Source: Actinomycetota bacterium
GTDB lineage: Bacteria > Actinomycetota > Nitriliruptoria > Nitriliruptorales > Nitriliruptoraceae
Reading direction: 5' to 3'
NCBI GenBank assembly: GCA_019347575.1
Contig: JAHWKY010000007.1
Coordinates: 62,001-126,000, forward strand
DNA length: 64,000 nt
Part shown: one piece after another, positions 28,531-51,003 of the stretch
Layout of the letters: every line of letters begins with the position of its first letter
How positions within the stretch are numbered: position 1 is the stretch's first letter
Program-made: the position numbers and the translations under genes
Notes under the pieces: model-generated
Told to the model about the DNA's origin: nothing
Databases searched by the model: none
Seen by the model: the letters and a program-made list of their open reading frames with translations, nothing else

Positions 28531-30228
28531 TCACCTCGAGCGAGGTCGTTCCCGCCACCGTTTCGGTGCGTCGAACCATGGCTTGAGGCGAATCCGCGTC
28601 GGCGGGAGATGGCCGTAGATCAGGACTCCCTCGAAAGGTCGCATCTGGCGCAGACCGGCTGCGCTGGTCAGGGGTTCGTGCTGAGTGGCGTGCGTAGCGG
28701 AGATGCGACCCTCGGGGTCGACGGTAGTGGTCCGCCGCGTCACCTCGGCCTCGCCGATGACCTGGGCAACCTCCGTCGTCGTGGTCGCGTCGGTGATGCC
28801 GGACAGCAGAAGCTTCGCGCGGTGGTTGTTGACCACGGTTGCTGCTTGGTGCCCATACCGGGCGACGATCTGAGAACGGTCCTGCCAGATGGTCACGAGC
28901 TGGATGCCCAGCCCGGCGGCCGTGGAGGCGACTTGTGCGAGTTCGCGCAGCGGCGCGATGTTGGCGGCCTCGTCCAGCACTAGCAATAGGTTCAGTCGTC
29001 CCTTGCTGCCGGCTCGCTCGTAGGCCGCCGCGAGCACGGTCTGGACGAGCGCCGTGAACAGAGGCCGGAGCCGTGCCTGCTCGTGAAGGGGTGCCGACAC
29101 GTAGAGGGTGTGCGCCCCGCCGCCCAGCAGCCGCTCAGGATCGATGTCGGAGCGTTGGGCCGAGGCCGCGACCTGGGGATCTGCGAACGCCGCGAGAACG
29201 GTCTCTGCGGTCGTGTACACCGACGAACGGGACCGTTCCTCGCGTCCCCAGCTCGCCCTCGCTGCCGCCAGGGCTTCGGGTACGCGCGCCACCTTGAGCA
29301 GGAGTTCGACCTCCTGCTGCTCCTTGAGGTCCACCCACCGAACGACGTCGCTGATGGTGCAGCCAGAGGTGGCCGCCGCGAACAGCAAGGGCGCGATCAA
29401 CTTGCCGGCGTTCGAGTACCAGAAGTCGTTCTCATCGAGCTGCCGGTCACGCGCCGCCTGGGTCAGCCACGACGCGGTCCGCAACGCCTCCTGCCAGCTG
29501 TGACACCCGGCCAAGGGCGTCCACGAGGCGCTGTCGAACTCAGCGACGCTCGATGTCGGGTCGTAGACCCAGACGTCACCGCGGTCGCGCCGCGTCGAGA
29601 TGGTTTCGGCCAGCAGATCCGCCTTGACGCTCGTGGCGACGACGGGACCGGGCCACTCGAGGATCGCCGGGATCGCCAGACCCGAGGTCTTGCCGCTCTG
29701 GGTCGGGCCAAGCACGAGGAGCGAGTGTCCCGCCTCCGTCGCGAGCAACCGGCCGCGTGATCCGTAGCCGAGCGTCAGCCGTCCGGGTACCGGTCCGGGA
29801 ACGACCAGCGGCGTCAGGTCCTGCGGAGTCGCCCATCGCGACGCATCCGACGCCTCCGGCTGTCGCCTCGCCCGGCGCCCCAACAGCCACCACACCGGAA
29901 CCAGCACCGCCACCAGCAGCAGTGACGCTGCGGTCCAGAACAGCACCGGACCAGGCAAGCGGCTGGCCGCCTCGACGGGGAACGCCGCCCGAGGGTCACC
30001 AGGATGCCGGGCCACCTCGAACGCGACCGGAACCATCTCCGACAACCTGATCGTCAGCCAGGAACCGGACGTGACGAGCGCCGCGAGCTGAGCGGCAGCC
30101 CACAGCCAGGCCGAGCCGGCCACCGCGACGCCGAGCCCGAAGGCGACGACCAGCTCGAATGGCGACAGGCCCGTCGCGATGTTGTGTCCGCCCGACAGTT
30201 GAGAGTTCCTTGACGGTGGTGCGTTCAC
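28531..30228 (-). CDS. VirD4/TraG-type coupling protein
   Basis: 565-aa membrane ATPase that links the relaxosome to the secretion channel. Two or three N-terminal membrane segments (about 20-45 and 90-115) precede the nucleotide-binding domain with LGPTQSGKTSGLAIPA at about 172-187, a Walker B VLDEAANIAPL near 413, and the QDRSQIVARYG segment typical of TraG/VirD4 motif 3. GTG 30228 starts 2 bp after the stop of the VirB4 gene, so it is last in the 35432-to-28531 operon. It is complete. With the MobF relaxase it supports a conjugative element. Confidence 0.92.
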   Translation of the reverse strand: MNAPPSRNSQLSGGHNIATGLSPFELVVAFGLGVAVAGSAWLWAAAQLAALVTSGSWLTIRLSEMVPVAFEVARHPGDPRAAFPVEAASRLPGPVLFWTAASLLLVAVLVPVWWLLGRRARRQPEASDASRWATPQDLTPLVVPGPVPGRLTLGYGSRGRLLATEAGHSLLVLGPTQSGKTSGLAIPAILEWPGPVVATSVKADLLAETISTRRDRGDVWVYDPTSSVAEFDSASWTPLAGCHSWQEALRTASWLTQAARDRQLDENDFWYSNAGKLIAPLLFAAATSGCTISDVVRWVDLKEQQEVELLLKVARVPEALAAARASWGREERSRSSVYTTAETVLAAFADPQVAASAQRSDIDPERLLGGGAHTLYVSAPLHEQARLRPLFTALVQTVLAAAYERAGSKGRLNLLLVLDEAANIAPLRELAQVASTAAGLGIQLVTIWQDRSQIVARYGHQAATVVNNHRAKLLLSGITDATTTTEVAQVIGEAEVTRRTTTVDPEGRISATHATQHEPLTSAAGLRQMRPFEGVLIYGHLPPTRIRLKPWFDAPKRWRERPRSR

Positions 30229-30230
30229 CC

Positions 30231-31505
30231 TCAACCTCGTTCCGTCAGCTCTCGGAGGACCGTCGTCATGCGGGCGTCCGTGTCGGTGATCGCACGTTCG
30301 TGGGAGCCGAGCGCGTGCTCGACGAGGAACGACCGGTTGCCGACGCGCCACAGAGCCACGCCCCGTCCGAGCTGAGGCAGCAGCTCCGCCTCGGTGTCGG
30401 TGAGCCCGAGCATCTCGCGCGCGGCGGCGGTCTCTGCTGGGGATTGGCCGTAGATGACACGCGTCTCGGAATCCGCCAGCAGGCCGCGCGCAAGCGCCAC
30501 CTGCTCCGAGCCAGCCTCTCCGGCCGCCTGCAGATCGCTGAGTCGGTGGATGACGGCAACGTTGGACACGCCGTACTGGCGCGACAGCTTCCACGACGCT
30601 TGGAGCCAACGTGCGATCTGGAGCTGGCGCAGCACCGCCCACGCCTCGTCGACCACCACGATGGTCCGCTCGGAGGTGACGCCCCGAAGCGCGGTTTGGA
30701 GCCAGGCCGTGGCGCACAGCATCAGGAGGCCCAGGGCCGCCGAGCCGTACAGCTCGGACAGATCGAGCACCACCACGGGCGCCGTGAGGTCGAGCGTCGG
30801 GCTGGTGGGTGCGTCGAACATCCCAGCGAGGTCGCCCTGGCACAGCCGCCGCAGGTCCAAGGCCACCTGCCGGCCTGCTTCCGCGAGCGAACTCGTGTCG
30901 GTCGCGACCCGTTGGGCGGCGTCAAGGTCCGGGCGTAGCAGTGCGTCCACCACGTGCGGGATCACTAGATCTTCGCCGTGCTCCCTCGTCGCCGACGTCA
31001 ACGCAAGCTCACAGGCGGTTTGCTCGTCGGGGCTCAGCGCACGGTCCAGGGATGCAGCCGCCAGCGATGTCAACAGGTTCAGCCGACGCCGGCCCCCCTC
31101 ATCGACGTCCGCGCCTCCGGGACCGGAGTCGAGGGGATTGAGGTGCACGCCGAGCCCAGGTCCGATGCGCACAGGCTCGACGCCGCACGCTTCTGCCAGC
31201 GGGCCGTACTCGCCCTTCGGATCGACGACCCACGACCGCCGTCCAAAGACCTGCTGGCGCCACAGGTAGGTCTTGACCCAGGCCGACTTCCCTCGGCCGA
31301 CCTGGCCGGCGACGAGGAGGTTGGGGTTGGTGAGCACACCCTCGTCGTAAAGGACCCACGGGTCGTAGCAGAACGCCCCGCCCAGCACCTCACGTCCGAC
31401 GTACACCCCGCGGCCTCCGAGCCCGCCCTCCGTCACGAAGGGGTAGGCAGCCTGGAGATGAGCAGTGGAGACCCGGTGGGAGCCGGCTCCTGGCGGAACG
31501 GTCAT
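30231..31505 (-). CDS. VirB4-like conjugation ATPase
   Basis: 424-aa cytosolic ATPase of the TraC/VirB4 type that powers pilus assembly and secretion. Walker A VAGQVGRGKSAW at about 65-76, DPKGEYGPLAEACG shortly after, Walker B TIVVVDEAWAVL near 280, and a C-terminal YGQSPAETAAAREMLGLT typical of these ATPases. ATG 31505 overlaps the stop of the SCO6880-like gene (ATGA); the frame is open further upstream but is a shadow there. The short N-terminus suggests that the domain usually joined in VirB4 is supplied by the neighbouring SCO6880-like protein. Confidence 0.88.
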   Translation of the reverse strand: MTVPPGAGSHRVSTAHLQAAYPFVTEGGLGGRGVYVGREVLGGAFCYDPWVLYDEGVLTNPNLLVAGQVGRGKSAWVKTYLWRQQVFGRRSWVVDPKGEYGPLAEACGVEPVRIGPGLGVHLNPLDSGPGGADVDEGGRRRLNLLTSLAAASLDRALSPDEQTACELALTSATREHGEDLVIPHVVDALLRPDLDAAQRVATDTSSLAEAGRQVALDLRRLCQGDLAGMFDAPTSPTLDLTAPVVVLDLSELYGSAALGLLMLCATAWLQTALRGVTSERTIVVVDEAWAVLRQLQIARWLQASWKLSRQYGVSNVAVIHRLSDLQAAGEAGSEQVALARGLLADSETRVIYGQSPAETAAAREMLGLTDTEAELLPQLGRGVALWRVGNRSFLVEHALGSHERAITDTDARMTTVLRELTERG

Positions 31506-32995
31506 CGCAGCCCACGGGCGAGCGGCAGCGTCCACGTGAACGCGACGTCCTGCTGGCCGTCCAGGCGACGCAGTTCGAGAGCCGACTGCTGGGCTGCTTG
31601 CTCGACCTCCCCGCACGAGGCTTCTAGCTCGTCGCGCGACGGTGCGGTGACCGTGACGTAGCCAGCCAGGCGGTAGTCGGCGTGGCCATCGGCCAGCTCT
31701 TGCTCGCGTCGCGCGGCCGTTTCCTGCATGCGCCGGCGTCGGGCGGTCGAGCTGAAGCCAGCGCGAGTGCGCACCTCCTCATCGGCTTGGCCCTTGAGGA
31801 CCGCCTGCTCCACCTCCCGGTGCGCCTTGTAGGGGCTCACCGGCTCCATCGTCACCGCCACGGTGCGCATCGCGGTGGTGCCCAGCAGCAGCGGGGCCAG
31901 GAAGTCGGCGCCGACCGGCGAGCGGGGCCACTGGGCGACCCAGTAGGTCGCGTGCCACACATCGGTCGTGCGGTAGGCCGACCAGCGGTTCTCCGCCACC
32001 AGCGGCCACGCGTTGCCGGGATCGGTGCCTCCCTCGGTCTGCGCCGCCGTCGCTCGGCGTGCGAGAGGTGCGCGTGAGTGGGGGTCGAACGCGGTTCGCA
32101 GCGCCCCGGCGAGCAGACGCGGCGTGAGGATCCCGTCGACGGTGAGGTCTGCGGCGGCGAGCTGACGACGCAGGCTGACCAGCTCACGCGTCAGGACGTG
32201 GAGGGCGCCATCGTGCCCGCCGCCGGCCTGTCGCACGGAGCGTCGTGCGCGGGCGACGGAGATCGACAGGACGAGGAAGGTCTCGTGGGCAGGCGCCGAC
32301 GGCCCTGCCCGGTCGACGAGCTCGAGGTAGGACGCCAGGCTCGGGTGGTCGCGCGGCACTTGCCGGGCCGTGGCCAGGTAGCGCCCCATCGCGTCGCCGT
32401 CCTCCGGTGCGGTTCGCTCGACCCACTGCACCCGGTGGACGGGCGAGGAAGCGCGCGCGAGCCCCGCCAACAGCCCGCCCCATGCCGCCAGTCGCCGCTC
32501 CCGGTCGGGTGTGTCGGCGAGCTGGAACGAGCCTCCGCGAACGGACAGCACCGCGCTGTAGGTGCCGGCACGGGCGTCGTGGACGACGCCGACCTCGCGG
32601 CCACCCGACCCCTCGAGAACGACCGGCAGGAGCCGCGTCCCCACCAGAGTTGGGGGCGGGCACTGGGGCAGCGCGCCCTGCGCGTCGTGACCCAGCAGTG
32701 GGAGCGGCGAGCGGTGGCGTTGTCGCCCGGTGAGACGCTGGAGCACCCAGCGGAGCGCCACCGGCGTCCACTGCTCGACCGTCCTGCCCGCAACCGGCCA
32801 CACGACGGCCATCGCCGCCAGCGCGACGACCCCGATCGCGACGACGAACGACCCGCGCGCCCCGGCCCCGAGACGGACCAGCGCGACCGCCGTCACCAGC
32901 GCACCGCCGAGTACGGCGAGCTGTGCGGCGCGCAGCCCCAGGACGACCGTCCGGTCCTCGGCGGCGGCACCGAACTCGTAGCGGGTCGCGTTCAA
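31502..32995 (-). CDS. SCO6880-family type IV secretion protein
   Basis: 497-aa protein. Two close N-terminal membrane segments at about 22-40 and 50-68 follow a short polar start, then a soluble region with an Arg-rich surface. The family is found next to VirB4 in actinobacterial conjugative elements and appears to replace the N-terminal part of VirB4/VirB3. TTG 32995 overlaps the VirB6-like stop (TTGA) and the end overlaps the VirB4 start (ATGA), so it is tightly coupled in the operon. Confidence 0.78.
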   Translation of the reverse strand: MNATRYEFGAAAEDRTVVLGLRAAQLAVLGGALVTAVALVRLGAGARGSFVVAIGVVALAAMAVVWPVAGRTVEQWTPVALRWVLQRLTGRQRHRSPLPLLGHDAQGALPQCPPPTLVGTRLLPVVLEGSGGREVGVVHDARAGTYSAVLSVRGGSFQLADTPDRERRLAAWGGLLAGLARASSPVHRVQWVERTAPEDGDAMGRYLATARQVPRDHPSLASYLELVDRAGPSAPAHETFLVLSISVARARRSVRQAGGGHDGALHVLTRELVSLRRQLAAADLTVDGILTPRLLAGALRTAFDPHSRAPLARRATAAQTEGGTDPGNAWPLVAENRWSAYRTTDVWHATYWVAQWPRSPVGADFLAPLLLGTTAMRTVAVTMEPVSPYKAHREVEQAVLKGQADEEVRTRAGFSSTARRRRMQETAARREQELADGHADYRLAGYVTVTAPSRDELEASCGEVEQAAQQSALELRRLDGQQDVAFTWTLPLARGLR

Positions 32996-34401
32996 CGTGA
33001 AGCGTCATTGGGCTGGTCGTCCCCGACGTGCGGGTCGGAGGCGCGGGGAGTGTCGCGCCTCGCCGCAGGTGAGCTGCGCCCGGCGCCACCAGCGGTCTCC
33101 GCCACCTGCTCGGCGCGCGTCCTTGCCGAGGCGATGGTGCTCTTCGTCGCCGCGGCGGCTGCGGCGACAGCGACCCCTCCACCAGCGGCCCCCGCCGTGG
33201 CGGCGCGTCCCGGTCCGGCTGCTGCCGATGCACCCCGCGCGACTCCTTGCGCGTCCCCACCGGCGCGTTGCTTGAGTATCCCGACGACCTGGTTGCGTGT
33301 TACCGGCGTGCCCACCGCGGCGGTCGGCCGGCGGAACGTGCCTTCGAGCTGGCCCGACAAACTGGACTCGAAGACGGGGATCAACCGCAGGACCACGTAC
33401 GGAGCGAAGGCGGCGAGAGTCAACAGCGCTGAGCCCGACACGACGACAGCGAAGCCATCGTCAGCGACATCCGCGTCGAGGGCGTTGGACGCCAGGGCCA
33501 GAACGGCGACGATCACGAGCTTGGACAGGACGATGGCGACGAGGCCCTGCACCAGACGGCGCAGCCAGTGGGCCGTGGCGGGCCAGACCATCGACATGAA
33601 CGCCAGCGGGAAGAACAAAACCGCCACGTAGATGGCGGCCTCCCTCAACAGGAGCTCGAGCCAGATCACGAACGATGCGAACGCAACGACCGCTCCACCG
33701 ATCAGTGCGGCGAAGCCCGCGACCGCGGCACCGGTCGTCGCGGAGGTCGGCACAGCGACCAGAGCCAGTCCCTTGCCGACCCCCGTTGCGAACGACGACA
33801 GGTCTGCGCCCATGCCGCGACGGATCCAAGCCGCGAGTTCATCGGTGAGCGACACCAGCAGGCCGACGACCGTAATCGCCACTGCCGTACCGACGGCTGC
33901 GAGAGGTACGTGCGCGAACGCCGCCCGCACCATCATCCCGATGTCCTGGCGCAGGAGCGCCTGGATCACGGCCAGGAGGAGGAACGGCAAGAGTCCCAGA
34001 GCGGCGACCACGGCCATGTCGCGGTAGGAGGCCTCGAACCATCCCGCGCTGAGTCGAGGCCGCGTCGACCCATCGATGAAGCCCGCCACCCCACCGAGCA
34101 TCCATCCCGCGCCGTCCACGACCCATCCGACGATCGCGCCGAGGATCGCGCTCGCGCCCCCGCCCACGATCGTCCTGATGCCGCCGCCGACTACGTCGCC
34201 GACGGCGCTGCACACGTCGCCGACGATCCAGGGGACGTGGCTACAGAACCCTGTGTCGCCAGACTCAGCGGTAGTTGGCGGCTCGGTCTCCACGATGGCG
34301 ACCACGTTCTCCTGTGCGTCGCCGACCGTCGGCGTTCCGCCGAGCGCCACGCCGAGACCGATGACGGCGACAGCGGCTGCTTGTGCAAGTCGCAGACGCA
34401 T
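32992..34401 (-). CDS. VirB6/TrbL-like multi-pass membrane protein
   Basis: 469 aa with a signal peptide (residues 1-29), an extracytoplasmic segment with two Cys, then about six to eight membrane helices between about 130 and 345 (for example VVAALGLLPFLLLAVIQALL and VPLAAVGTAVAITVVGLLV). The C-terminus is a long Ala/Gly/Thr-rich polar tail (about 360-469). This is the architecture of VirB6/TrbL inner-membrane channel proteins. ATG start; it is followed after 4 bp overlap by the SCO6880-like gene. Confidence 0.75.
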   Translation of the reverse strand: MRLRLAQAAAVAVIGLGVALGGTPTVGDAQENVVAIVETEPPTTAESGDTGFCSHVPWIVGDVCSAVGDVVGGGIRTIVGGGASAILGAIVGWVVDGAGWMLGGVAGFIDGSTRPRLSAGWFEASYRDMAVVAALGLLPFLLLAVIQALLRQDIGMMVRAAFAHVPLAAVGTAVAITVVGLLVSLTDELAAWIRRGMGADLSSFATGVGKGLALVAVPTSATTGAAVAGFAALIGGAVVAFASFVIWLELLLREAAIYVAVLFFPLAFMSMVWPATAHWLRRLVQGLVAIVLSKLVIVAVLALASNALDADVADDGFAVVVSGSALLTLAAFAPYVVLRLIPVFESSLSGQLEGTFRRPTAAVGTPVTRNQVVGILKQRAGGDAQGVARGASAAAGPGRAATAGAAGGGVAVAAAAAATKSTIASARTRAEQVAETAGGAGRSSPAARRDTPRASDPHVGDDQPNDASR

Positions 34402-37446: not shown

Positions 37447-38691
37447 GTGGACTTCCGTTCACTCGAGCAGTGGTTGGATGAGCGCCGCCGTACCGAACTG
37501 TTCTTCGTTGGCTTGGACGAGTTCACGGACCTTGAGATCCGTCCGAGTGGAGATAGATCCGGCTTCAACTACTTCTTCGATGTCAAGCAGAGGCGCCTGA
37601 TCAAGGAGTTCGTCATTGACGAGACGGACCGAACGATCACCTACTGCGAGGTGACACTCATCGCCAAGGGCGAGAAGTTCGAGCCGCGCCTGTTCCTCAA
37701 GAAGGACAACAAGACGAAGGCCGGATTCAAGCGAGGTCAGGAGCAGCTCCGGAACCAGGAGGAGCACATCCTCGTTAAGACAGCGGTCAATCTTGATCCA
37801 TGCCACGAGAACTTCTGGCAGCTCGTCTCGTTCCTCGCCGCCTTGAAGGAGGTCGAATTCCCGGGCGAGCCCGTGGCAGTCGTGCCGCAGGACCTGCGAG
37901 ACCTCACGTCTGTGCTGGCCGATGCCGACACCAGCGAGGCCCGCCGGGTCGTTCAGAGTGCCATGCGTGGCCGACTGACGGAGGCTGACGTTCGTCTCCT
38001 CGTCGATCGCCGCGCTGCCCTCGACGAGTTCAACCATCTGATCGAGGATCCCGACTACCTGGCAGCCCGGATCGAGCAGACGGGAGCACGAGGAGAGGAG
38101 CCCATGTGGCAGGCATTCTTTGAGGAGCACCCATGGATTTTCGGTTATGGGCTCAAGCTGGTGGCTTGCGAGGGCTTCGACGACACGAAACTGGAGCAGT
38201 ACACGACGGGTGCTGATGCCTTCTCCCGAACGGGCGACAGAATCGATGGTCTCATGATCACGTTGGGCCTGATCCAGTCGCTCATGTTCGTCGAAATCAA
38301 GAAGGCCTCGGAGGATCTCCTCAACCCGAAGGAGTACCGGTCGGGTATCTACCGCCCTTCGGCTGAGCTGTCCGGTGCGGTCAGCCAAGTTCAGGTGACT
38401 GCGCATCGGGCTGTCAAGGGATTGTCGGACCTCGCGACACAGAAGGACAGGAAGGGATGGCCGCTCAGGGAAGTGGGGACAGTTGAGCCTCGGAAGGTAA
38501 TCGTCATCGGCCAGCTGCAGCAGTTCAGCCGCAACGGCGTCGTCAATGAGGACCTGTACAGGAGCTTTGAACTCTATCGTCGTTCGATTCACGATGTAGA
38601 GATCATCACCTTCGACGAACTACTCGAACGCGCACGATTCATCGCTCGGCATGAGACTGCGGATGGGTCGACGGATGCCGGTGGAGGCTGA
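37447..38691 (+). CDS. sduA: Shedu antiphage nuclease SduA (DUF4263)
   Basis: 414-aa single-gene defence protein. The C-terminal DUF4263 nuclease domain at about 220-395 has MWQAFFEEHPWIFGYGL, the PD-ExK-type pair Asp267 (IDGLM) and VEIKK at 282-286, and the family tail VEIITFDELLERARFIA. The N-terminal 200 residues, beta-rich then helical, are the usual Shedu sensor region. Shedu cuts DNA on phage challenge. GTG start after GGGGGTGA. It lies right after the conjugation genes as cargo. All visible active-site residues are kept. Confidence 0.88.
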   Translation: MDFRSLEQWLDERRRTELFFVGLDEFTDLEIRPSGDRSGFNYFFDVKQRRLIKEFVIDETDRTITYCEVTLIAKGEKFEPRLFLKKDNKTKAGFKRGQEQLRNQEEHILVKTAVNLDPCHENFWQLVSFLAALKEVEFPGEPVAVVPQDLRDLTSVLADADTSEARRVVQSAMRGRLTEADVRLLVDRRAALDEFNHLIEDPDYLAARIEQTGARGEEPMWQAFFEEHPWIFGYGLKLVACEGFDDTKLEQYTTGADAFSRTGDRIDGLMITLGLIQSLMFVEIKKASEDLLNPKEYRSGIYRPSAELSGAVSQVQVTAHRAVKGLSDLATQKDRKGWPLREVGTVEPRKVIVIGQLQQFSRNGVVNEDLYRSFELYRRSIHDVEIITFDELLERARFIARHETADGSTDAGGG

Positions 38692-39334: not shown

Positions 39335-39979
39335 TTAGTAGGTCCTGACATCAATGACGACCGAGGCTGGATCGTCGACGAGATATGGCACGGTCAACTC
39401 CACGATGGGCTCAGCGGGGGCCACACGGCACCGCTGCCGCCACGGATAGTCCGAGATTCGGCTGAATGTGCCGACCCCCCGCGTGTAGTTTGCGCCGGGG
39501 TGAACAGCACCGCTGTTGAGAGGTGACAACTCCACAGCGTCCCCGAACCGCGCGAGAAGTCGTTCCGTGCTGACGACAAGGATGTCGTGTTGACGGTCCC
39601 GATATGGCGGGGCGTGACGCAGGCGATCTAGGCGCTTCCTGGTAAGCCAAAAAAACACTCTCCCGTTGAGCGTTCGATACCATTCGTCCTCGGTCATGCC
39701 GAAGAGAGTCCTCCTGAGCACGGTCTCGTTAATTGGCTTGTTATCTCGGATCCAAGCTGTGCCGTACCGAGGATGCTCAATCCGAACTGACTCCGGTCGG
39801 CGCCTAGCCTCGATCGTCTCACGCTCCGGGCCCTCGATCCCGTACAGATCAAGTAGAGCGGTGGTTGAGCGAAGTCCAAAGCGCTGAATACTTGCCCACG
39901 ATCCTTCCTCCGCCATGTGGAACAGGGTTGGCCAGCGCTCGACCATGTAGCCAACCGTCAGAACGTCCGAAGTCACCAC
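39335..39979 (-). CDS. DUF7002-like, possibly ADP-ribosyltransferase-fold protein
   Basis: 214 aa. The N-terminus LFHMAEEGSWASIQRFGLRSTTALLDL (about 20-46, shown in parts) has the His plus SI..GL..T pattern seen in DarT/DUF4433, Tpt1 and other ART-like folds and matches what I recall of the DUF7002 family. A middle segment WIRDNKPINETVLRRTLFGM and a C-terminal region VFFWLTRKRLDRL, SPLNSGAV follow. It overlaps the PurA/Z-like stop by 7 bp (or 4 bp from GTG 39976). With a macro domain encoded in the same operon it could be the transferase half of an ADP-ribosylation pair. Catalysis is not proven. Confidence 0.6.
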   Translation of the reverse strand: MVTSDVLTVGYMVERWPTLFHMAEEGSWASIQRFGLRSTTALLDLYGIEGPERETIEARRRPESVRIEHPRYGTAWIRDNKPINETVLRRTLFGMTEDEWYRTLNGRVFFWLTRKRLDRLRHAPPYRDRQHDILVVSTERLLARFGDAVELSPLNSGAVHPGANYTRGVGTFSRISDYPWRQRCRVAPAEPIVELTVPYLVDDPASVVIDVRTY

Positions 39980-41565
39980 TGTCGGCGGTCTATAATGCCG
40001 CGGTACTGCATGAAGCCGGTCGAGATGAGGGATACGCGGGCACCAGTCACCCGCTCAACCTCTTCTATGAAGCGGATAGTTTCGTCTGTCAACTGCTCGA
40101 AACGCCACGCCTCCACGTTTCTGCCGTCCAAGTAGTCGGCGAAGGTGAGTGCGATGTCGGTGGGTGCGTTCAATAGGGCCGCACGCCGCAACAGATCCCA
40201 TTCCGGTTCTCCCACCCGGCGCAGGCGTTGTGTCTTTGAAGTCAGTTCCTTCTCTGCCAAGCCCTTGAGGCCCGACCGTTCCTCGATCTCCTCCCACGTC
40301 AGTTCCGTCGTTAGCGGCCCCGACGTTCCTCCAACACGGATAGGATACGTCCTCACGACGAGAACCACGCGGCGGACGCGAGACGGCGCTATTCCAGCCT
40401 CAGCCAGACAGCCGGCCACGTTGGTGTCTCGTGAGGTGACGTAGGGATATGGGCCATGGAAGAGCGAGAGTCCGGATCCCTGTGTCCCTTCCAACATGAT
40501 CCGCTGCCGTGATGCGTAGGCTTGTTCAAGGATCTCGTACGTCGGTCGAACGTAGGGATGCAGTTCTGGGACGTCCCGAGCGAGCCGAACGTCATCGCCG
40601 CGCATGATCCGGCGAGCGGTGGCGAACCCCGTTCCGGATTTGGTGGAAGCGATGCCACCGAGTTTCTCAGCCTCGCGAGCTTTGTCAGCGTCGTCGATGA
40701 TCATCACTAGGGGGTCGATCGAAAGACGACTGCTACTGACGTCACAGCGTGCGATCTCGTCGAGCAACTCTGGCGGGTACACGACGGCACCTGGACCAAG
40801 GGCGAGCCGAGCATCGCCCGCTTGCGTACCTGACGGTAGGCTGAAGTGCGTGAAGATCTCGCCAGAGGCCAGATAGACTTTGTGTGCTGCGTTTGGTCCA
40901 CCGACTCGAAGCAGCAGGTCGTACTCGGGTGCGAGGTGGAATGCGATGTTGCCCTTCCCCTCGCTGCCATAACTTCCGCCAACGATCACGTCGACGCACG
41001 AAGCATGTTCGCGGTCAAGCAGCCCAAGTTGGGCAGCTACGCGAACGACTACATCGTCCGGACCATCTCGCTCGGTGTCCACAGCGACGTCAGCCATTGC
41101 GCCCAGGTCATCGATTCGCTCCTCCGTAGGGTCGGCGACGACAGCGGCGTACGACGCGGCTTCTTCAAACTCTGCCTCCGAGCGCCGATTCTCGTAGCGC
41201 TCGGCGCACACTTTCCGCGGCGCAGTTACATGCACGTGCCGAACGTCGCGTCCGAATGCCTGGCGAAGACCCTCGATCTGGGCTGCTATGCGCGCGGCGT
41301 CAACTATGACGACTTCCTCGTCTGCGTCGAAGATTCGGCGCGACAAGCCATCTACGACCCAGCGACCGTTCGTGCGCTCATCGAGCTCAGCACCAATGCG
41401 TTGGAGCGTGCCCCGGGTTGGTGTCTGTCCTTCGGCGAGGTGGGGTACGAGAAGATCCCGAGTGGAGAACCGGATTCCACCAAATCGCTCGGCCAGCGAT
41501 CGCGCCAACAGGCTCTTGCCGCCGGCAACAGGGCCAGACACGACGATCACCACGCGCTGCACCAT
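39973..41565 (-). CDS. P-loop kinase-like domain fused to PurA/PurZ-like synthetase
   Basis: 530 aa. Residues 1-185: a small P-loop NTPase with VVSGPVAGGKSLLARSLA, STRDLL and conserved Arg/Asp segments, like nucleotide kinases. Residues 190-530: adenylosuccinate synthetase fold with GGSYGSEGKGN at 196-206, GGPNAAHKV at 222-230, STKSGTGFATARRI near 307, EGTQGSGLSLFHGPYPYVTS at 359-378, VRTYPIRVGGTSGP and TSKTQRLRRVGEPEWD. PurA has Asp in GDEGKGK as catalytic base; here it is Ser201, the change reported for phage PurZ, which makes 2-aminoadenine precursors from dGMP. ATG has AGAGGG upstream. It lies between the macro fusion and the DUF7002-like gene. Substrate unknown. Confidence 0.85.
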   Translation of the reverse strand: MVQRVVIVVSGPVAGGKSLLARSLAERFGGIRFSTRDLLVPHLAEGQTPTRGTLQRIGAELDERTNGRWVVDGLSRRIFDADEEVVIVDAARIAAQIEGLRQAFGRDVRHVHVTAPRKVCAERYENRRSEAEFEEAASYAAVVADPTEERIDDLGAMADVAVDTERDGPDDVVVRVAAQLGLLDREHASCVDVIVGGSYGSEGKGNIAFHLAPEYDLLLRVGGPNAAHKVYLASGEIFTHFSLPSGTQAGDARLALGPGAVVYPPELLDEIARCDVSSSRLSIDPLVMIIDDADKAREAEKLGGIASTKSGTGFATARRIMRGDDVRLARDVPELHPYVRPTYEILEQAYASRQRIMLEGTQGSGLSLFHGPYPYVTSRDTNVAGCLAEAGIAPSRVRRVVLVVRTYPIRVGGTSGPLTTELTWEEIEERSGLKGLAEKELTSKTQRLRRVGEPEWDLLRRAALLNAPTDIALTFADYLDGRNVEAWRFEQLTDETIRFIEEVERVTGARVSLISTGFMQYRGIIDRRQW

Positions 41566-41597
41566 CGGATCCCTCTTCGTGCGCCCGAGGGGACTCG

Positions 41598-42941
41598 TTA
41601 CAGCAGAGCCATCTGGGCGCTGTCGTCAGCATCCTCTGGCATCAGTGCATTCGGAAGGATGTGCACAGTAACCCGAACATGGCGTCGGCTGAGTTCCTCA
41701 AGGATCAGATCTCGTACCTTTGGCCAGGGGGTCCCCCCTTGGCCCGTGCCGATGAGTGGCATGTGCACCTCGGCACGGAGACTTGTCGCCGTCTCTGCCA
41801 AAGATTCGAGGCATTGTCGCAAAGCAGGCAGCCTGAGCCGGGGTTGGTCCGATGGACCGTAGCCAGCCTGCGCGACGAGGCTTGCGATCCACAGGTCGTC
41901 TGCAGCCGGCGCTATGTGTAGTGCTCCGAGTCGCCGCTCCTTCGCCGGCCAATCAGCGTACGCATCCTTCGCGGCGGGAAAGCGCTTCATCAGCGAACGC
42001 GCGAACCCCTGTCCACCCCAGCGCTTCGCGCGGTTGTTGACAACGTGAGCGATGATCGCTCGACCGTCCGTTCGTGGCTGGGACGCATCACCTCTCACAT
42101 ATCGCAGGCCCGCGTCGTCTGGGACGGTCTCAGATGCTGGCTGCAGGAGCCCGATCACGCGCGGGAACCTGTCTCCGGGGTACGGCGGGACGCCTACGGC
42201 TTGGACGCGCAGTTCTTGCCCGTCCCAGATCTCGACGCCGTGGTCGGCGTAGCCGACCGCAGTGCAGCGGGCGAGCACTTCCGCAGATACGACATCTCCG
42301 CTCCGCAGCTCCGGGGTCCAAGCCCTCGAACGGACGGTGTAATCGATCCGGAAGCGCCCGTCATCGGTACGGGCGGCCGCGAACAAACACGCCGGCCGCG
42401 CCGTGAGTCGGATCACACGACGCAAGAGTGCCTCTGTCGACACACCGAACTTGGCCCGAAGATCGAGCAGACGCACTAAGTCGAGGTCCGTCGTCTCACC
42501 AATGGGCAGCGCTCCGGCCGGCATGAGCAGTTCAGCGGCCGCAACGTTGCAGAGAACCTCCAGTTGCCAGTCGTCGGCGCGGCGTTGATCCATGTCCCGA
42601 TAGCGCGTCCGGTCCGCATAGTCATCAAACAGAAGGTGCCCGATTTCGTGGGCCAGCGAGAAGCGGATACGCGCAGGCCGGCGTTGCGGGTTGAACTCGA
42701 TCCGGGGTTTGCCCTCGATGGCTACCAACCGTGCATCGTCCAAGTCTTGGCGTGCAACAACCTCAATGTCGAGCGCGTCCGCAAGCTTGAACGAGTCATA
42801 AGGTGGGCCGGTCCAGCCCTGTTCGATCGCCTGAAGCGCTAGGTCGCGAGCCCGCGTCTCCACCCATTCCAGGGGGTCCTTCGCGCCCTGTTGCTCGAGC
42901 ACTCGAAGCACGGAGGGGTGAGTCCAGTTGATTGCGGTCAC
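41598..42941 (-). CDS. ImmA/IrrE metallopeptidase fused to a macro domain
   Basis: 447 aa from GTG 42941. Residues about 40-190: ImmA/IrrE domain with zinc motif AHEIGH ending at 102 and a downstream helix LEVLCNVAAAELLMP. Residues about 190-260: a beta-rich linker (VRSRAWTPELRSGDVVSAEV). Residues about 275-435: a macro domain of the ALC1/TARG1-like kind with AHVVNNRAKRWGGQGFARSL and MPLIGTGQGG. ImmA/IrrE proteases cut repressors or antitoxins; macro domains bind or remove ADP-ribose. The fusion suggests a sensor that responds to an ADP-ribose-like ligand and cuts a regulator. It is 32 bp upstream of the PurA/Z-like gene. Confidence 0.85.
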   Translation of the reverse strand: MTAINWTHPSVLRVLEQQGAKDPLEWVETRARDLALQAIEQGWTGPPYDSFKLADALDIEVVARQDLDDARLVAIEGKPRIEFNPQRRPARIRFSLAHEIGHLLFDDYADRTRYRDMDQRRADDWQLEVLCNVAAAELLMPAGALPIGETTDLDLVRLLDLRAKFGVSTEALLRRVIRLTARPACLFAAARTDDGRFRIDYTVRSRAWTPELRSGDVVSAEVLARCTAVGYADHGVEIWDGQELRVQAVGVPPYPGDRFPRVIGLLQPASETVPDDAGLRYVRGDASQPRTDGRAIIAHVVNNRAKRWGGQGFARSLMKRFPAAKDAYADWPAKERRLGALHIAPAADDLWIASLVAQAGYGPSDQPRLRLPALRQCLESLAETATSLRAEVHMPLIGTGQGGTPWPKVRDLILEELSRRHVRVTVHILPNALMPEDADDSAQMALL

Positions 42942-43077
42942 GGCACTGGACCTCCACGGCTGGAGAGCGGGTCCTTCCGCAGCGTAGTGACTCGAACGGC
43001 GACCACCAGCGACCTGGCGGGCGTGTTCGTCCGGGCTGCGAGGGCATTGCTCCTACTCGCAAAATGCGGGGCGGGCC

Positions 43078-44364
43078 TCATAACGCGTCCACGGCTCGCG
43101 AGGCGTGAGTCAGTAACGCGGCGGGATCCAGGGTGGCTCTGAGTTCGTCATCGCTGAGCCCAACGCCGAGCCGCGCGGCCTCCGTGTACAACGTCGTTCC
43201 GTTGTCGGCGGCACTCCGGACGACGGACTGGACCGTTCTGTATGCCTCGTCGCGCGAACGTCCGATCTCGATAAGAGCATGCAGCAAGGCCTCGCTGCAC
43301 ACAACGTCCCCGCTACGGGCGAGGTTCTCCGACATGCGGTCGGTGTCGACGACCCACGTCGAGACGAGGTCCGTCGCCGTACACAGTGAGTAGTGCGCCA
43401 CGGTGCAAGCGTCTGCCAGGACGATTCGCTCGACCGAGCTGTGAGTGAGGTCCCGCTCGTGCCAGAGAGCGACGTTCTCCAACGCCGCTGGCATGAGACT
43501 CCGTGCGTACCGCGCTAGTCCACAGAGCTGTTCGGCCTTCACAGGGTTGCTCTTGTGCGGCATCGCGGACGATCCCTTCTGCTCGCCCGAAAAGCCCTCT
43601 CTGAGCTCAGCGACCTCCGTCTGATGACCTAGACGGACGGTGGTCGCGAGGTTCTCCACCGCGGCCATCACGAGTGCTAATGAGAACACGAAGTCGGCGT
43701 GCCGGTCCCGTGCGATGACCTGGGAGGCCGGTTCCGGTCGTAACTGAAGTGCTTCGCACACGACCGCCTCAACCCTTGGCTCAACCACTGCATACGTGCC
43801 GACCGCGCCAGAGAGCTTGCCGACACGAAGACCATCGGTCGCTAAACCAACTCGGCCGACGGCACGGGCTACCTGGAGCGCCAGCAGGGCGAGTTTCGAC
43901 CCAAACGTGACCGGGAGAGCATGCATACCGTGTGTGCGGCCCGGCATGGCAGCCGCTCGGTGCGCGCGCGCCTCACTCACCAACACTCGATGCAGGCGAG
44001 CACCAGCTTCGACAACCAGCTCCCCAGCGGCCACGAGTGCTAGGGCGAGGCCGGTGTCGACAACGTCTGACGACGTCAAGCCGAAGTGGAACCAGCGACC
44101 GTCGTTCCCCAGTCGCCCCGATACGACATCGACGAACGCGGCGACGTCATGGTGCGTCGTTTGCTCGCGAGCTTCAATCTCCGCGAGGAGCGAGTCATCG
44201 ACCGCCGGTGAGGCACGGCGAATGCGGGCAGCGTCTTCGGCGGGCACCCGCCCGATTGCTGCGAGCGCATCCACCGCCAGAAGCTCGACCTGAAGCCAGC
44301 GCTCGACGCGCGCGCGATCGCTAAACAACTCCGCCATTTCCGGCGTGAGGTAGCGCGGAAGCAT
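43078..44364 (-). CDS. purB: adenylosuccinate lyase, island-borne copy
   Basis: 428 aa, normal length for the family. All hallmarks are kept: TTHHDV at 69-74, FGLTSSDVVDT at 94-104, GRTHG at 142-146 and the signature GSSAMPHKSNPVKAEQL at 264-280. It releases fumarate from adenylosuccinate-type intermediates (or from SAICAR). ATG 44364 gives the family N-terminus (MLPRYLTPEM) but lacks a clear RBS; ATGs upstream at 44445 and 44598 are in frame. It sits first in the cassette with the PurA/Z-like gene, so it probably finishes that pathway rather than housekeeping purine synthesis (inference). Confidence 0.88.
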   Translation of the reverse strand: MLPRYLTPEMAELFSDRARVERWLQVELLAVDALAAIGRVPAEDAARIRRASPAVDDSLLAEIEAREQTTHHDVAAFVDVVSGRLGNDGRWFHFGLTSSDVVDTGLALALVAAGELVVEAGARLHRVLVSEARAHRAAAMPGRTHGMHALPVTFGSKLALLALQVARAVGRVGLATDGLRVGKLSGAVGTYAVVEPRVEAVVCEALQLRPEPASQVIARDRHADFVFSLALVMAAVENLATTVRLGHQTEVAELREGFSGEQKGSSAMPHKSNPVKAEQLCGLARYARSLMPAALENVALWHERDLTHSSVERIVLADACTVAHYSLCTATDLVSTWVVDTDRMSENLARSGDVVCSEALLHALIEIGRSRDEAYRTVQSVVRSAADNGTTLYTEAARLGVGLSDDELRATLDPAALLTHASRAVDAL

Positions 44365-48039: not shown

Positions 48040-48809
48040 GCATCCTCGCCTTCGGCTCCGCCAAAGCGTCACCCGGTGTGACGACGTCGCTCCTCGCGAT
48101 GGCGGCCGTCTGGCCCGCGGACCGCTCGCTGCTCCTCGTCGAGGCAGACCCCGACGGGGGCGTGCTCAGTGCGCGGTGCGGCTTGGCGGCGGAGCCTGGC
48201 CTGTCGACGCTCGCCGTGGCAGGACGGCGGTCGATGCCCCTGGGTGAGCTCGCCCGCCACGTCCAGCGGCTGCCCGGCGGCGACGTCGACGTCCTCGTCG
48301 GACCTCCATCGGCCGAGCAGTCACGCCGGGCGCTCGAGCTGGGCGCGGGGCCGCTCGCCGTCGCTCTGCGGGAGCTGCCCGGTACCGACGTGCTGGTGGA
48401 CCTGGGCCGGTTGACGCCGGCGGCGACGACCTGGCCCCTCGTCGACGCCGCGGACCGTGTGGTCCTCGTGGCGCGTCCCCGTCTGGAGGAGCTCCAGATG
48501 CTCCCCGCGAGGTTGCGCGCGCTGACCGGTGCCGGAGTCGCCCCATCGTTGGTGCTCGTGGGTGAACGCCCCTACTCCCCCGCGGAGGTCACCACGGCGC
48601 TCGACGTGGACGTGCTCGCGGTGCTTGCCGACGACCCGCGCGCGGCGGCCGCCCTCACAGGCGAGCCGGGAGTGGCCGGACTGCGCCGCTCCCTCCTGCT
48701 GCGCAGTGCCCAGGACGCCGTCGCCGCGCTGCTCGCCGCATGCTCAGGCGGCCACGACGACGGCGAGGTGCGGGCGCCCGAGAGGGAGGAAGCGGAGGTG
48801 GTCACGTGA
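48036..48809 (+). CDS. CpaE-like ParA/MinD-family ATPase
   Basis: 257 aa. The N-terminus SAKASPGVTTSLLAMAAV is a deviant Walker A (KASPGVTT) of ParA/MinD type, with LLVEADPDGG (Walker A'-associated Asp) and VLVDLGRLTPA as the Walker B region. Tad clusters use such ATPases to place the pilus machine. The receiver domain found in some CpaE proteins is absent. It overlaps CpaB by ATGA and the TadA gene by GTGA. Confidence 0.8.
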   Translation: MSILAFGSAKASPGVTTSLLAMAAVWPADRSLLLVEADPDGGVLSARCGLAAEPGLSTLAVAGRRSMPLGELARHVQRLPGGDVDVLVGPPSAEQSRRALELGAGPLAVALRELPGTDVLVDLGRLTPAATTWPLVDAADRVVLVARPRLEELQMLPARLRALTGAGVAPSLVLVGERPYSPAEVTTALDVDVLAVLADDPRAAAALTGEPGVAGLRRSLLLRSAQDAVAALLAACSGGHDDGEVRAPEREEAEVVT

Positions 48810-50137
48810 ACCCAGGCGAGCGCGCGCTGCTCGTGTCCTCGATCGCCGGTGGTGTTGCCGACCAGCTCGCTGCCGAGGACGGCGCCGCGGAACAGGGCGG
48901 TCGCGCCCCGAAGCTGCCGGAAGACGAGCGGATGTACGCGCAGGCGCTGATCCGCGAACGACTCGAGGCCGACGCGGGTCGGCGGCTCCGGGTGGGCGAG
49001 GTGTCGCTGAGCACCAGCGATGAGGAGCTGGTCGCTCGCGAAGCGTTCGACCGCCTCTACGGGCTCGGTCGTCTCCAGCGCTACCTCGACGACCCGAGCG
49101 TCACCGACATCCACGTCCAGGGCTGTGACGTCGTGTGGTTGAAGCTCCTGGACGGATCGTGGTCGCGCGGCGCGTCGGTTGCGGACAGCGACGACGAACT
49201 CGTGGAGCTACTGCGAACGGCAGCCGCGCGCGTGGGCCGCACCGAGCGGCGCTTCGACTCGAGCGAGCCGGAACTCAACCTCCAACTCACCGACGGGTCG
49301 AGGTTGTTCGCGGTCATGGCGGTGTCCGCGCGGCCCTGTGTGTCGATCCGCAAGCACCAGTTCGACATCGCGCACCTCGATGACCTGGAGCTGCGCGGCA
49401 CCCTGAGTGCCCCACTCGTCGCGTTCCTGCGCGCGGCAGTGGAGGCGCGCCGCAGCATCGTCATCGGTGGAGGTGTCGGGTGCGGCAAGACCACGTTGAT
49501 GCGCGCGCTCATCAACGTGATACCTCAGCAGGAGCGCCTAGTGACCATCGAGGACGCGCTCGAACTCGGCGTGGATCGCTTCGTCGAGCTCCACCCCAAC
49601 CTCGTCACTTTCGAATCGCGCGAGCCCAACATCGAGGGCGAGGGAGGCATCTCGCTCGAGCAGCTCGTGCGCATGGCGCTGCGGATGGACCCCGACCGGG
49701 TGTTCGTCGGCGAGGTCCGGGGAGCCGAGGTTCTCCCGATGCTCCTCGCGATGAGCCAGGGGCAGGACGGTTCGATGTGCACGATCCACGCCAACACCGC
49801 CAGAGGCGTGTTCCGGCGGTTGCAGATGTACGCGATGCTCCCGCCCCACCGCCTGGCTCCCGAGGACACGGCGGTGCTGATCGCCAACGCCGTCGACTTC
49901 GTGGTGCACCTCGACAAGCGCCGGATCGGCAACGACCCCACCGAGCGGTTCGTGACGTCGGTGCTCGAGGTCAGCGACGCCGAGGGCCGCGAGGTCGTCG
50001 CCAACGAGGTCTTCCGCCCCGGACCGGACGGGCGCGCCGTCCCGACAGGGATGGTGCGTGACGAGACGCTCGCGGCGCTCGAGGACGCCGGCCTGCGTCC
50101 CGGGATCGTCTCCGGCAACGGCCGAGGAGGCTGGTAG
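48806..50137 (+). CDS. tadA: TadA/CpaF secretion ATPase
   Basis: 443 aa hexameric ATPase that drives Flp pilus extension and retraction. The N-terminal helical domain (about 1-120) precedes the ATPase core: GGGVGCGKTTLMRALI at about 223-238, EDALEL (Asp box), MRMDPDRVFVGEVRGAE (Walker B/Glu), SQGQDGSMCTIHANT (His box) and an Arg-rich arm. GTG 48806 overlaps the CpaE gene. Complete and probably active. Confidence 0.92.
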   Translation: MNPGERALLVSSIAGGVADQLAAEDGAAEQGGRAPKLPEDERMYAQALIRERLEADAGRRLRVGEVSLSTSDEELVAREAFDRLYGLGRLQRYLDDPSVTDIHVQGCDVVWLKLLDGSWSRGASVADSDDELVELLRTAAARVGRTERRFDSSEPELNLQLTDGSRLFAVMAVSARPCVSIRKHQFDIAHLDDLELRGTLSAPLVAFLRAAVEARRSIVIGGGVGCGKTTLMRALINVIPQQERLVTIEDALELGVDRFVELHPNLVTFESREPNIEGEGGISLEQLVRMALRMDPDRVFVGEVRGAEVLPMLLAMSQGQDGSMCTIHANTARGVFRRLQMYAMLPPHRLAPEDTAVLIANAVDFVVHLDKRRIGNDPTERFVTSVLEVSDAEGREVVANEVFRPGPDGRAVPTGMVRDETLAALEDAGLRPGIVSGNGRGGW

Positions 50138-50139
50138 CG

Positions 50140-51003
50140 GTGGTGCTCATCGGAGCGGTGTGCGGGGCGGGGATGGCCTTGGGTGCTCTCGTCCTCGTCC
50201 TCGGCCTCCGCGGGGCGGAGGACACACCCGCTCGACGCCCGCCGCGCTCCCCGCTGGCGACGCAGCCCCTCGCGCTCGTGTCGGTGCTCACCTTCGTCGC
50301 GGCGCTGGCCGTCTACCTCCTCACCGGCTGGGTGGTCGGTGCGGCCATGGCAGCGCTGCTCGCTGCGACGCTCCCGCGGAGCTGGCGGCGCAGCCGCGAG
50401 CAGCACGCGCTCGTCGAGCGCACCGACGCGATCGCGGCGTGGACCGAGATGCTGCGCGACACGCTCGCGGCAGCTGCGGGGCTGGAACAGTCGATCGTGT
50501 CGACCGCACCGCACGCCCCCGAGGCGATCCGGGCAGAGGTCGGCCGGGTCGTTCGCCGTCTGGAGCGCGGGGAGCGGCTCGTCCACGGCCTGCGCCTGCT
50601 GGCCGACGACCTCGCCAACCCCGCCGCCGATCTCGTCGTTGCCGCGCTGGTGATCGCTGCGGAGAGGGAAGCCCGCGACCTCGTGCCGCTGCTGACCTCG
50701 CTCGCGAAGTCCACGCGCGAGGAGGCGCAGATGCGCCTGCACGTGCGGGCGAGCCGCGCCCGGCTGCGGACAACGGTCCGGGTCGTGGTCGGGAGCCTCG
50801 CCGTCTTCGCGGGCGGGCTGATCCTGTTCAACCCGGTCTACCTGGCCCCCTATCGCACGGTGCAGGGCCAGCTCGTGCTGCTGCTGGTCGGGGCCATCCT
50901 GCTCACGGGCTACGTGATGCTGCAGCGGATGGCGCGCATCCGCACCCCGCAGCGATTCCTGACGAGCGCCGCGGTCGGCGCCATGTCCGAGGTCGACCGA
51001 TGA
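50140..51003 (+). CDS. tadB: TadB-like inner membrane protein
   Basis: 287 aa with membrane helices near the N-terminus (about 5-22, 47-65 and 70-87), a cytoplasmic T2SSF domain (about 105-215, WTEMLRDTLAAAAGLEQSIV, DLVVAALVIAAEREARDLV) and two C-terminal helices (about 226-246 and 252-272). It is the platform partner of TadA. GTG start 2 bp after TadA stop; overlaps TadC by 4 bp. Confidence 0.88.
   Translation: MVLIGAVCGAGMALGALVLVLGLRGAEDTPARRPPRSPLATQPLALVSVLTFVAALAVYLLTGWVVGAAMAALLAATLPRSWRRSREQHALVERTDAIAAWTEMLRDTLAAAAGLEQSIVSTAPHAPEAIRAEVGRVVRRLERGERLVHGLRLLADDLANPAADLVVAALVIAAEREARDLVPLLTSLAKSTREEAQMRLHVRASRARLRTTVRVVVGSLAVFAGGLILFNPVYLAPYRTVQGQLVLLLVGAILLTGYVMLQRMARIRTPQRFLTSAAVGAMSEVDR

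Follow-up and report, generated by a model that had tools for sequence, protein, structure and literature searches.

We analysed a stretch of 64,000 nucleotides (hereafter the window; all coordinates refer to it) from the genome of an Actinomycetota bacterium of the family Nitriliruptoraceae (assembly GCA_019347575.1, contig JAHWKY010000007.1, positions 62,001 to 126,000). The subject is a cassette of four minus-strand genes, which probably represents a bacterial immune system of a new type. The first gene encodes a purB-type lyase (P0001, 43078 to 44364; TIGR00928 389.8 bits, cut-off 326). It is followed by an IrrE/PprI/CapP-type zinc peptidase fused to an ALC1/SCO6735-type macrodomain (IrrE-macro, P0002, 41598 to 42941; Peptidase_M78 2.9e-13, Macro weak at 0.006). 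The third gene product is predicted to be bifunctional and joins a P-loop kinase domain, similar to nucleoside monophosphate kinases, to a PurZ-type adenylosuccinate synthetase (the fusion, P0003, 39973 to 41565; Adenylsucc_synt 8e-49, AAA_33 1.7e-6). The last one is DUF7002 (P0004, 39335 to 39979; PF22531 3e-62), assigned a DarT-like ADP-ribosyltransferase (ART) fold by an AlphaFold2 model and Foldseek. All four reading frames are open between these coordinates. The fusion and DUF7002 genes overlap by 7 bp, the IrrE-macro and fusion genes lie 32 bp apart, and 136 bp separate the PurB and IrrE-macro genes. The tight order given in a preliminary description of this DNA was therefore confirmed.

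The kinase domain of P0003 covers residues ~1-185 (41011 to 41565; AAA_33/AAA_18), and at least 95% of the 99 fusion proteins share its P-loop lysine K17. The synthetase domain occupies residues ~189-530 (39976 to 41001). PurA uses Asp13, while phage PurZ has a serine there, beside the guanine 2-amino group (PMC8342488, PMC12884076). We found serine at this position in 99/99 fusion proteins, including Ser201 of P0003 (40963-40965); the peptide patterns of the genome scan included GSEGKGN, so the serine was partly selected in those loci. It is also present in 9/9 plasmid fusions derived by tblastn, a set not selected by that motif. The aspartate is kept in the aligned PurA proteins of the host and of Pyrococcus. 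The substrate-side loop PIRV...SG is common to the fusion, PurZ and PurZ0, and the PurA loop reads PTRVGAGPF. In a tree built by a quick method and with long branches, the fusions came together as a single clade (SH-aLRT 99), and a split with support 99 separates PurA from the side that holds PurZ and this clade. The curated PurZ model NF038379 gave 181 bits, below its cut-off of 300, and the PurA equivalogs were likewise below cut-off. Since the PurA-type TxxD motif is retained (D477) and NF038379 does not reach its threshold, the domain reads as PurZ-type but as a distinct subgroup, and its use of deoxyguanosine monophosphate (dGMP) is a prediction. The earlier idea that the locus produces or modifies an unusual purine nucleotide is borne out at the sequence level, as the synthetase has the hallmarks of PurZ and not those of PurA.

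The predicted role of P0001 is to cleave the succino-nucleotide that this synthetase would form. The same genome has a separate full-length purA on another contig (G000:C11, 595 bits) and a second purB (G000:C1:232708) which exceeds the TIGR00928 equivalog cut-off with 405.6 bits. This agrees with the earlier claim that the cassette does not serve housekeeping purine synthesis. The neighbourhood of the window PurB matches actinobacterial cassettes L062, L067, L074, L077 and L107, and their PurBs are 38-43% identical to it. Other cassette-bearing genomes encode a cassette PurB in the same identity range (38-43%), plus a further lyase of ~30% identity. In Amycolatopsis (L236), the one genome tested, this further lyase is a second purB above cut-off. 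PurB is a lineage-specific extra of the cassette.

The AlphaFold2 model of DUF7002 has a mean predicted local distance difference test score (pLDDT) of 96.1. In a Foldseek search against the PDB, the structural check proposed for this protein, the top match was E. coli DarT1 (8baq, 4.3e-4, probability 1.00), then Thermus DarT, other ARTs and Tpt1. The model thus has an ART fold with DarT1 as the nearest solved structure; template modelling scores (TM-scores) to those folds are modest overall (0.43). Across 73 DUF7002 homologues, H21, R61, R78, D79, N155, G157, R167 and E194 do not vary. From its position, judged without superposition, the C-terminal E194 would be the equivalent of DarT E152/E160. 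DarT sequence models of Pfam and NCBIfam did not match DUF7002. Its sole Pfam match at E <= 0.1 was DUF7002, and neither NCBIfam nor PADLOC gave any. Because the TM-scores are modest, we regard the modelled protein as an ADP-ribosyltransferase fold that is a remote relative of DarT, and not as a DarT.

Solo DUF7002 genes are located immediately beside or near dnaE in several phylum-mates (L216-L224, e.g. L217:493-4639) with no fusion nearby, which suggests a replication-linked role outside the cassette. Two plasmid DUF7002 copies also lack the fusion. We therefore rejected the notion that DUF7002 occurs only with the fusion. DUF7002 as a phage gene was rejected as well, with no match in 50,697 phage records.

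The peptidase domain of P0002 (residues ~35-191, 42369 to 42839; PADLOC capP 4.9e-20) carries a HEIGH zinc motif at residues 98-102. H98, E99, H102, E128 and R91 are invariant in 41 P0002 homologues, and the HExxH zinc site is intact. The best Foldseek match of the peptidase part was PprI in complex with single-stranded DNA (ssDNA; 8sln, 4.2e-11), and CapP (7t5t) was found with 1.2e-8. R91 aligns with PprI R85, which is needed for ssDNA binding (PMC10904395). The macrodomain (residues ~279-429, 41655 to 42107) matched 2afc (4e-22) and 5e3b (1.7e-21) in phmmer and is closest to BT1257 and SCO6735. In the alignment with DarG and 5e3b, the position of the catalytic Lys80 of DarG is taken by the invariant Gln358, together with Gln85 of SCO6735, which is essential in that enzyme (PMC9411070). 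The SCO6735 site residues H24, V25 and N27 align with HVVN of P0002, and the N27 equivalent varies in some homologues. SCO6735 removes ADP-ribose from DNA thymidine, not guanosine, and rescues E. coli from DarT (PMC9411070). Because a SCO6735-type macro site is combined with a PprI/CapP-type peptidase that has the arginine of the ssDNA patch, the plain reading of P0002 is a predicted ssDNA-sensing peptidase that carries, in the same chain, a predicted eraser of DarT-like marks. A search of the cassette neighbourhoods, which was not exhaustive, found no conserved cleavable-repressor partner gene. With the DarT1-nearest fold and the SCO6735-type macrodomain, the supposed coupling to an ADP-ribosylation toxin/antidote or sensing module holds at the level of sequence and fold.

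Full-length relatives of the fusion were found at 98 loci (a few are duplicates of one record) in many bacterial phyla and some archaea. They are 43-55% identical and lie on rhizobial plasmids, genome contigs and viral contigs, the genome contigs belonging to Planctomycetota, Acidobacteriota, Verrucomicrobiota, Actinomycetota, Myxococcota, alpha-, beta- and gammaproteobacteria, and archaea. DUF7002 is within the locus in 89/98 cases, and in 83 it is directly downstream of the fusion on the same strand, with a median gap of 3 bp. The IrrE-macro gene is directly upstream, as in the window, in 48 of the 98 (median gap 22 bp). An arrangement kept this often is not due to chance. The search for conserved co-occurrence thus found the gene order kept, but the four genes are not a fixed set as first assumed. 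The stable core is the fusion with DUF7002; PurB is optional and present in some loci only, mostly actinobacterial, so a fixed four-gene unit was rejected.

The remaining genes vary with the host. Actinobacterial cassettes have an additional MazG-like protein (14 loci) and in some cases PurB, and beta- and gammaproteobacterial ones gain a stand-alone copy of the kinase domain (adk 1.5e-7). In rhizobial and methylobacterial cassettes an HD protein of the phage 5'-deoxynucleotidase family takes the place of IrrE-macro (17 loci), together with a 450-aa protein that matched no Pfam family (16 loci). The coupling of purine and ADP-ribosylation genes therefore stands, with the amendment that PurB is optional, IrrE-macro can be replaced by the HD protein and another protein, and DUF7002 can occur alone. 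Z-phages, whose genomes contain 2-aminoadenine (Z), combine PurZ with DatZ and MazZ (PMC8342488). The helper deoxynucleotide enzymes of other cassettes (MazG-like, HD 5'-deoxynucleotidase, second kinase, PurB) match this logic, which supports the explanation proposed below. The 450-aa rhizobial protein (L028:10099-11457 and homologues) has no Pfam or PHROG match, and by eye its C-terminus resembles the N-domain of phosphoenolpyruvate synthase/pyruvate phosphate dikinase. On an archaeal contig from a metagenome-assembled genome (L045:8001-13375) two inverted cassette copies were seen, fusion with DUF7002 facing fusion with IrrE-macro.

The cassette surroundings are rich in defence genes. Among its 110 nearest non-cassette neighbours we counted 263 PADLOC families at 1e-10 (type I methyltransferases, GajB, Mads and others), versus 19 among 94 control proteins encoded in randomly chosen regions of genomes related to the host; the excess is approximate, since families and not proteins were counted and the control came from other genomes. 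Downstream, a Shedu nuclease gene on the plus strand (37447-38691; PADLOC SduA 4.8e-117) adjoins the window cassette, and conjugation genes are near it (type IV secretion system (T4SS) coupling protein PF02534, 2.7e-38). The flanks at 28531-34401 and 48740-51003 hold T4SS/TraG-type conjugation genes as well as T2SSE/T2SSF-type ATPase and membrane genes. They are consistent with an integrated conjugative element.

Several known systems share parts with the cassette. As in the Z-genome phage cluster (phiVC8, S-2L, SH-Ab 15497), the synthetase is PurZ-type and carries Ser where PurA has Asp. Helpers of the MazG-like, HD nucleotidase and PurB types are likewise present in various cassettes, and the fusion is also found in phage contigs beside DNA polymerase. 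Unlike that cluster, the cassette is an operon of bacteria that includes genes for an ART and a peptidase-macrodomain, its synthetase is kinase-fused and forms a separate branch of the PurZ tree, and in the neighbourhood survey no DNA polymerase, Z-selective or other, recurred in the bacterial cassettes. DarTG (DarT1-NADAR, DarT2-DarG) likewise encodes an ALC1-class macrodomain in one operon with an ART of DarT-like fold. However, DUF7002 is a different sequence family, and the cassette macrodomain, joined to a PprI/CapP peptidase, has Gln instead of DarG Lys80. The cassette also includes purine enzymes, and many copies lack the macro protein. DarTG membership was rejected on the missing DarT model match and the missing Lys80. 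In Kongming (KomABC) a purine-altering enzyme and a kinase make a deoxynucleotide alarm (PMC12948488), and the cassette would do the same if the signal reading is right; but the Kongming product is deoxyinosine triphosphate (dITP) made from dAMP, its effector depletes NAD+, its enzymes differ, and no Kongming protein was recognised in the cassette. The P0002 peptidase shares the HExxH motif and the equivalent of PprI R85 with PprI-DdrO and CapP-CapH, but it is fused to a macrodomain, and no repressor partner gene was recognised in the cassette.

PADLOC 2023 gave partial domain matches for P0002 alone (capP, RmrA, DarG), left P0001, P0003 and P0004 unmatched, and did not recognise the whole cassette as any known defence system. 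In the literature searched (preprints outside), we found no description of DUF7002, or of PurZ with defence islands or macro domains. The cassette is widespread and apparently undescribed relative to these sources; no described system with this gene set was found in them, in line with the preliminary description, which knew of none.

Taking together the conserved operon, the PurZ-type active site, the ART fold, the intact peptidase, the SCO6735-type macro site, the defence setting and the separate housekeeping genes, we propose a mobile immune-type cassette in which synthesis of 2-aminoadenine deoxynucleotides is linked to a DarT-like effector and an eraser/sensor (probability about 0.5). We infer the substrates, the order of events and the action of the Z-nucleotide on the ART as follows. 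The PurZ-type domain would join aspartate to dGMP and give dSMP, PurB would split dSMP to dZMP, the 2-aminoadenine deoxynucleotide, and the fused kinase would phosphorylate dZMP to dZDP/dZTP. DUF7002, translated from the overlapping start, would use NAD+ to ADP-ribosylate DNA or a nucleotide and stop replication during infection. The P0002 macrodomain may act as a restraint that clears stray ADP-ribose from DNA, and the PprI/CapP-type peptidase, switched on by ssDNA, may act as a sensor by cutting a regulator. The likeliest link between the two chemistries would be the Z-nucleotide as a signal that activates (or feeds) the ART in the manner of Kongming dITP, since dGMP levels would rise when a phage degrades the host's DNA. 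More tentatively, and at somewhat below even odds, bacteria and archaea themselves may make 2-aminoadenine deoxynucleotides and use them in immunity to activate or direct a DarT-like DNA-ADP-ribosylating effector, with the peptidase-macrodomain as sensor and eraser.

Several observations weigh against this proposal. The connection between the dZ nucleotide and DUF7002 is its weakest step. Since solo copies exist beside dnaE, DUF7002 is not an obligate toxin of the cassette. The eraser candidate IrrE-macro is not universal, being missing from rhizobial and some other cassettes. The retained TxxD motif makes the choice of dGMP over GMP or IMP less than certain, and so does the loop insertion of the window copy, which is short (two residues) and PurZ-like. 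The foreign origin of the defence control also belongs here.

The closest competitor is a DarTG-like toxin-antitoxin module which maintains the mobile element, with DUF7002 as toxin, the macro protein as antidote, purine enzymes making a protective or regulatory nucleotide, and incidental antiviral action. The ART fold near DarT, a macrodomain of the type that rescues E. coli from DarT (PMC9411070), the conjugation genes in the window and the plasmid cassette copies would all suit it. But rhizobial cassettes keep the fusion and DUF7002 without the macro protein, solo DUF7002 genes have no adjacent antidote, the DarT models of Pfam and NCBIfam miss DUF7002 and the catalytic Lys of DarG is absent, so we consider it unlikely. 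Somewhat less likely still is DNA labelling, in which dZTP enters fast-replicating (phage) DNA and DUF7002 ADP-ribosylates the 2-amino group of Z or the partner T, blocking labelled DNA only. DarT1 modifies the guanine 2-amino group (PMC11543638), which the PurZ product also has. In E. coli, the Z triad leads to Z in the DNA and is toxic (PMC8342488). On the other hand, solo DUF7002 exists in genomes where no fusion was found, and an enzyme that depletes dATP is absent from most cassettes. Moreover, a nucleotide trigger is favoured over labelling because solo DUF7002 lies beside dnaE with no fusion nearby and because the macrodomain resembles SCO6735, which cleaves thymidine-linked ADP-ribose but spares guanosine 2-amino links (PMC9411070).

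Synthesis of a small molecule, either a purine nucleoside antibiotic or a modified cofactor, with DUF7002 and the macrodomain as self-resistance, seems improbable. PurA/PurB pairs do occur in nucleoside clusters, such as the Rhizobium locus L034 with FolE, QueC and QueE, but the synthetase there retains the Asp and clusters with PurA. Around the cassette, neither transporter nor tailoring genes are conserved, and its neighbours are defence genes. The idea of housekeeping purine genes that drifted beside unrelated genes could appeal to the window PurB, which exceeds the TIGR00928 equivalog cut-off. It was rejected and is hardly credible, given the separate purA and purB in the genome, the serine in place of the catalytic Asp, and an operon conserved in 83/98 loci.

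So far, 2-aminoadenine chemistry has been established in phages. Should the PurZ-type domain have the activity that its active site points to, such synthesis would be widespread in cellular organisms too. Z-DNA metabolism and nucleic-acid ADP-ribosylation, two separate fields, would then be joined in one operon, DUF7002 would gain a function and bacterial immunity a nucleotide chemistry.

The fusion was also found in or beside the replication module of phage contigs (L120:3807-9692, L121:6645-14657 and L124, L123:5192-9584, L167:6605-14602), with DNA polymerase A in each. A DnaB-type helicase and primase are encoded in L121 and L167 as well, and in L121 the polymerase comes with a uracil-DNA glycosylase (UDG)-like domain. 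DUF7002 is absent from these contigs. In another contig (L126:1020-3381) the fusion is followed by a nucleoside deoxyribosyltransferase-MazG protein, like a combined DmtZ-MazZ. The phage contexts fit Z-genome metabolism and support a deoxynucleoside monophosphate (dNMP) role of the fused kinase, and phages with the kinase-PurZ fusion are predicted to carry 2-aminoadenine genomes.

Two rhizobial plasmid loci differ from the cassette. On Sinorhizobium medicae pMl5 (L033:6296-11509) a stand-alone PurZ-like synthetase (GSEGKG) lies with a divergent HD nucleotidase and dCTP-deaminase-like, E1-like and JAB-like proteins. The locus may represent a further bacterial system that contains PurZ. The cluster on Rhizobium leguminosarum pCC283b_4 (L034:5369-11623), with FolE, PurA, PurB, QueE, QueC, nitrile hydratase-like and IMP dehydrogenase-like genes, is a probable 7-deazapurine nucleoside pathway.

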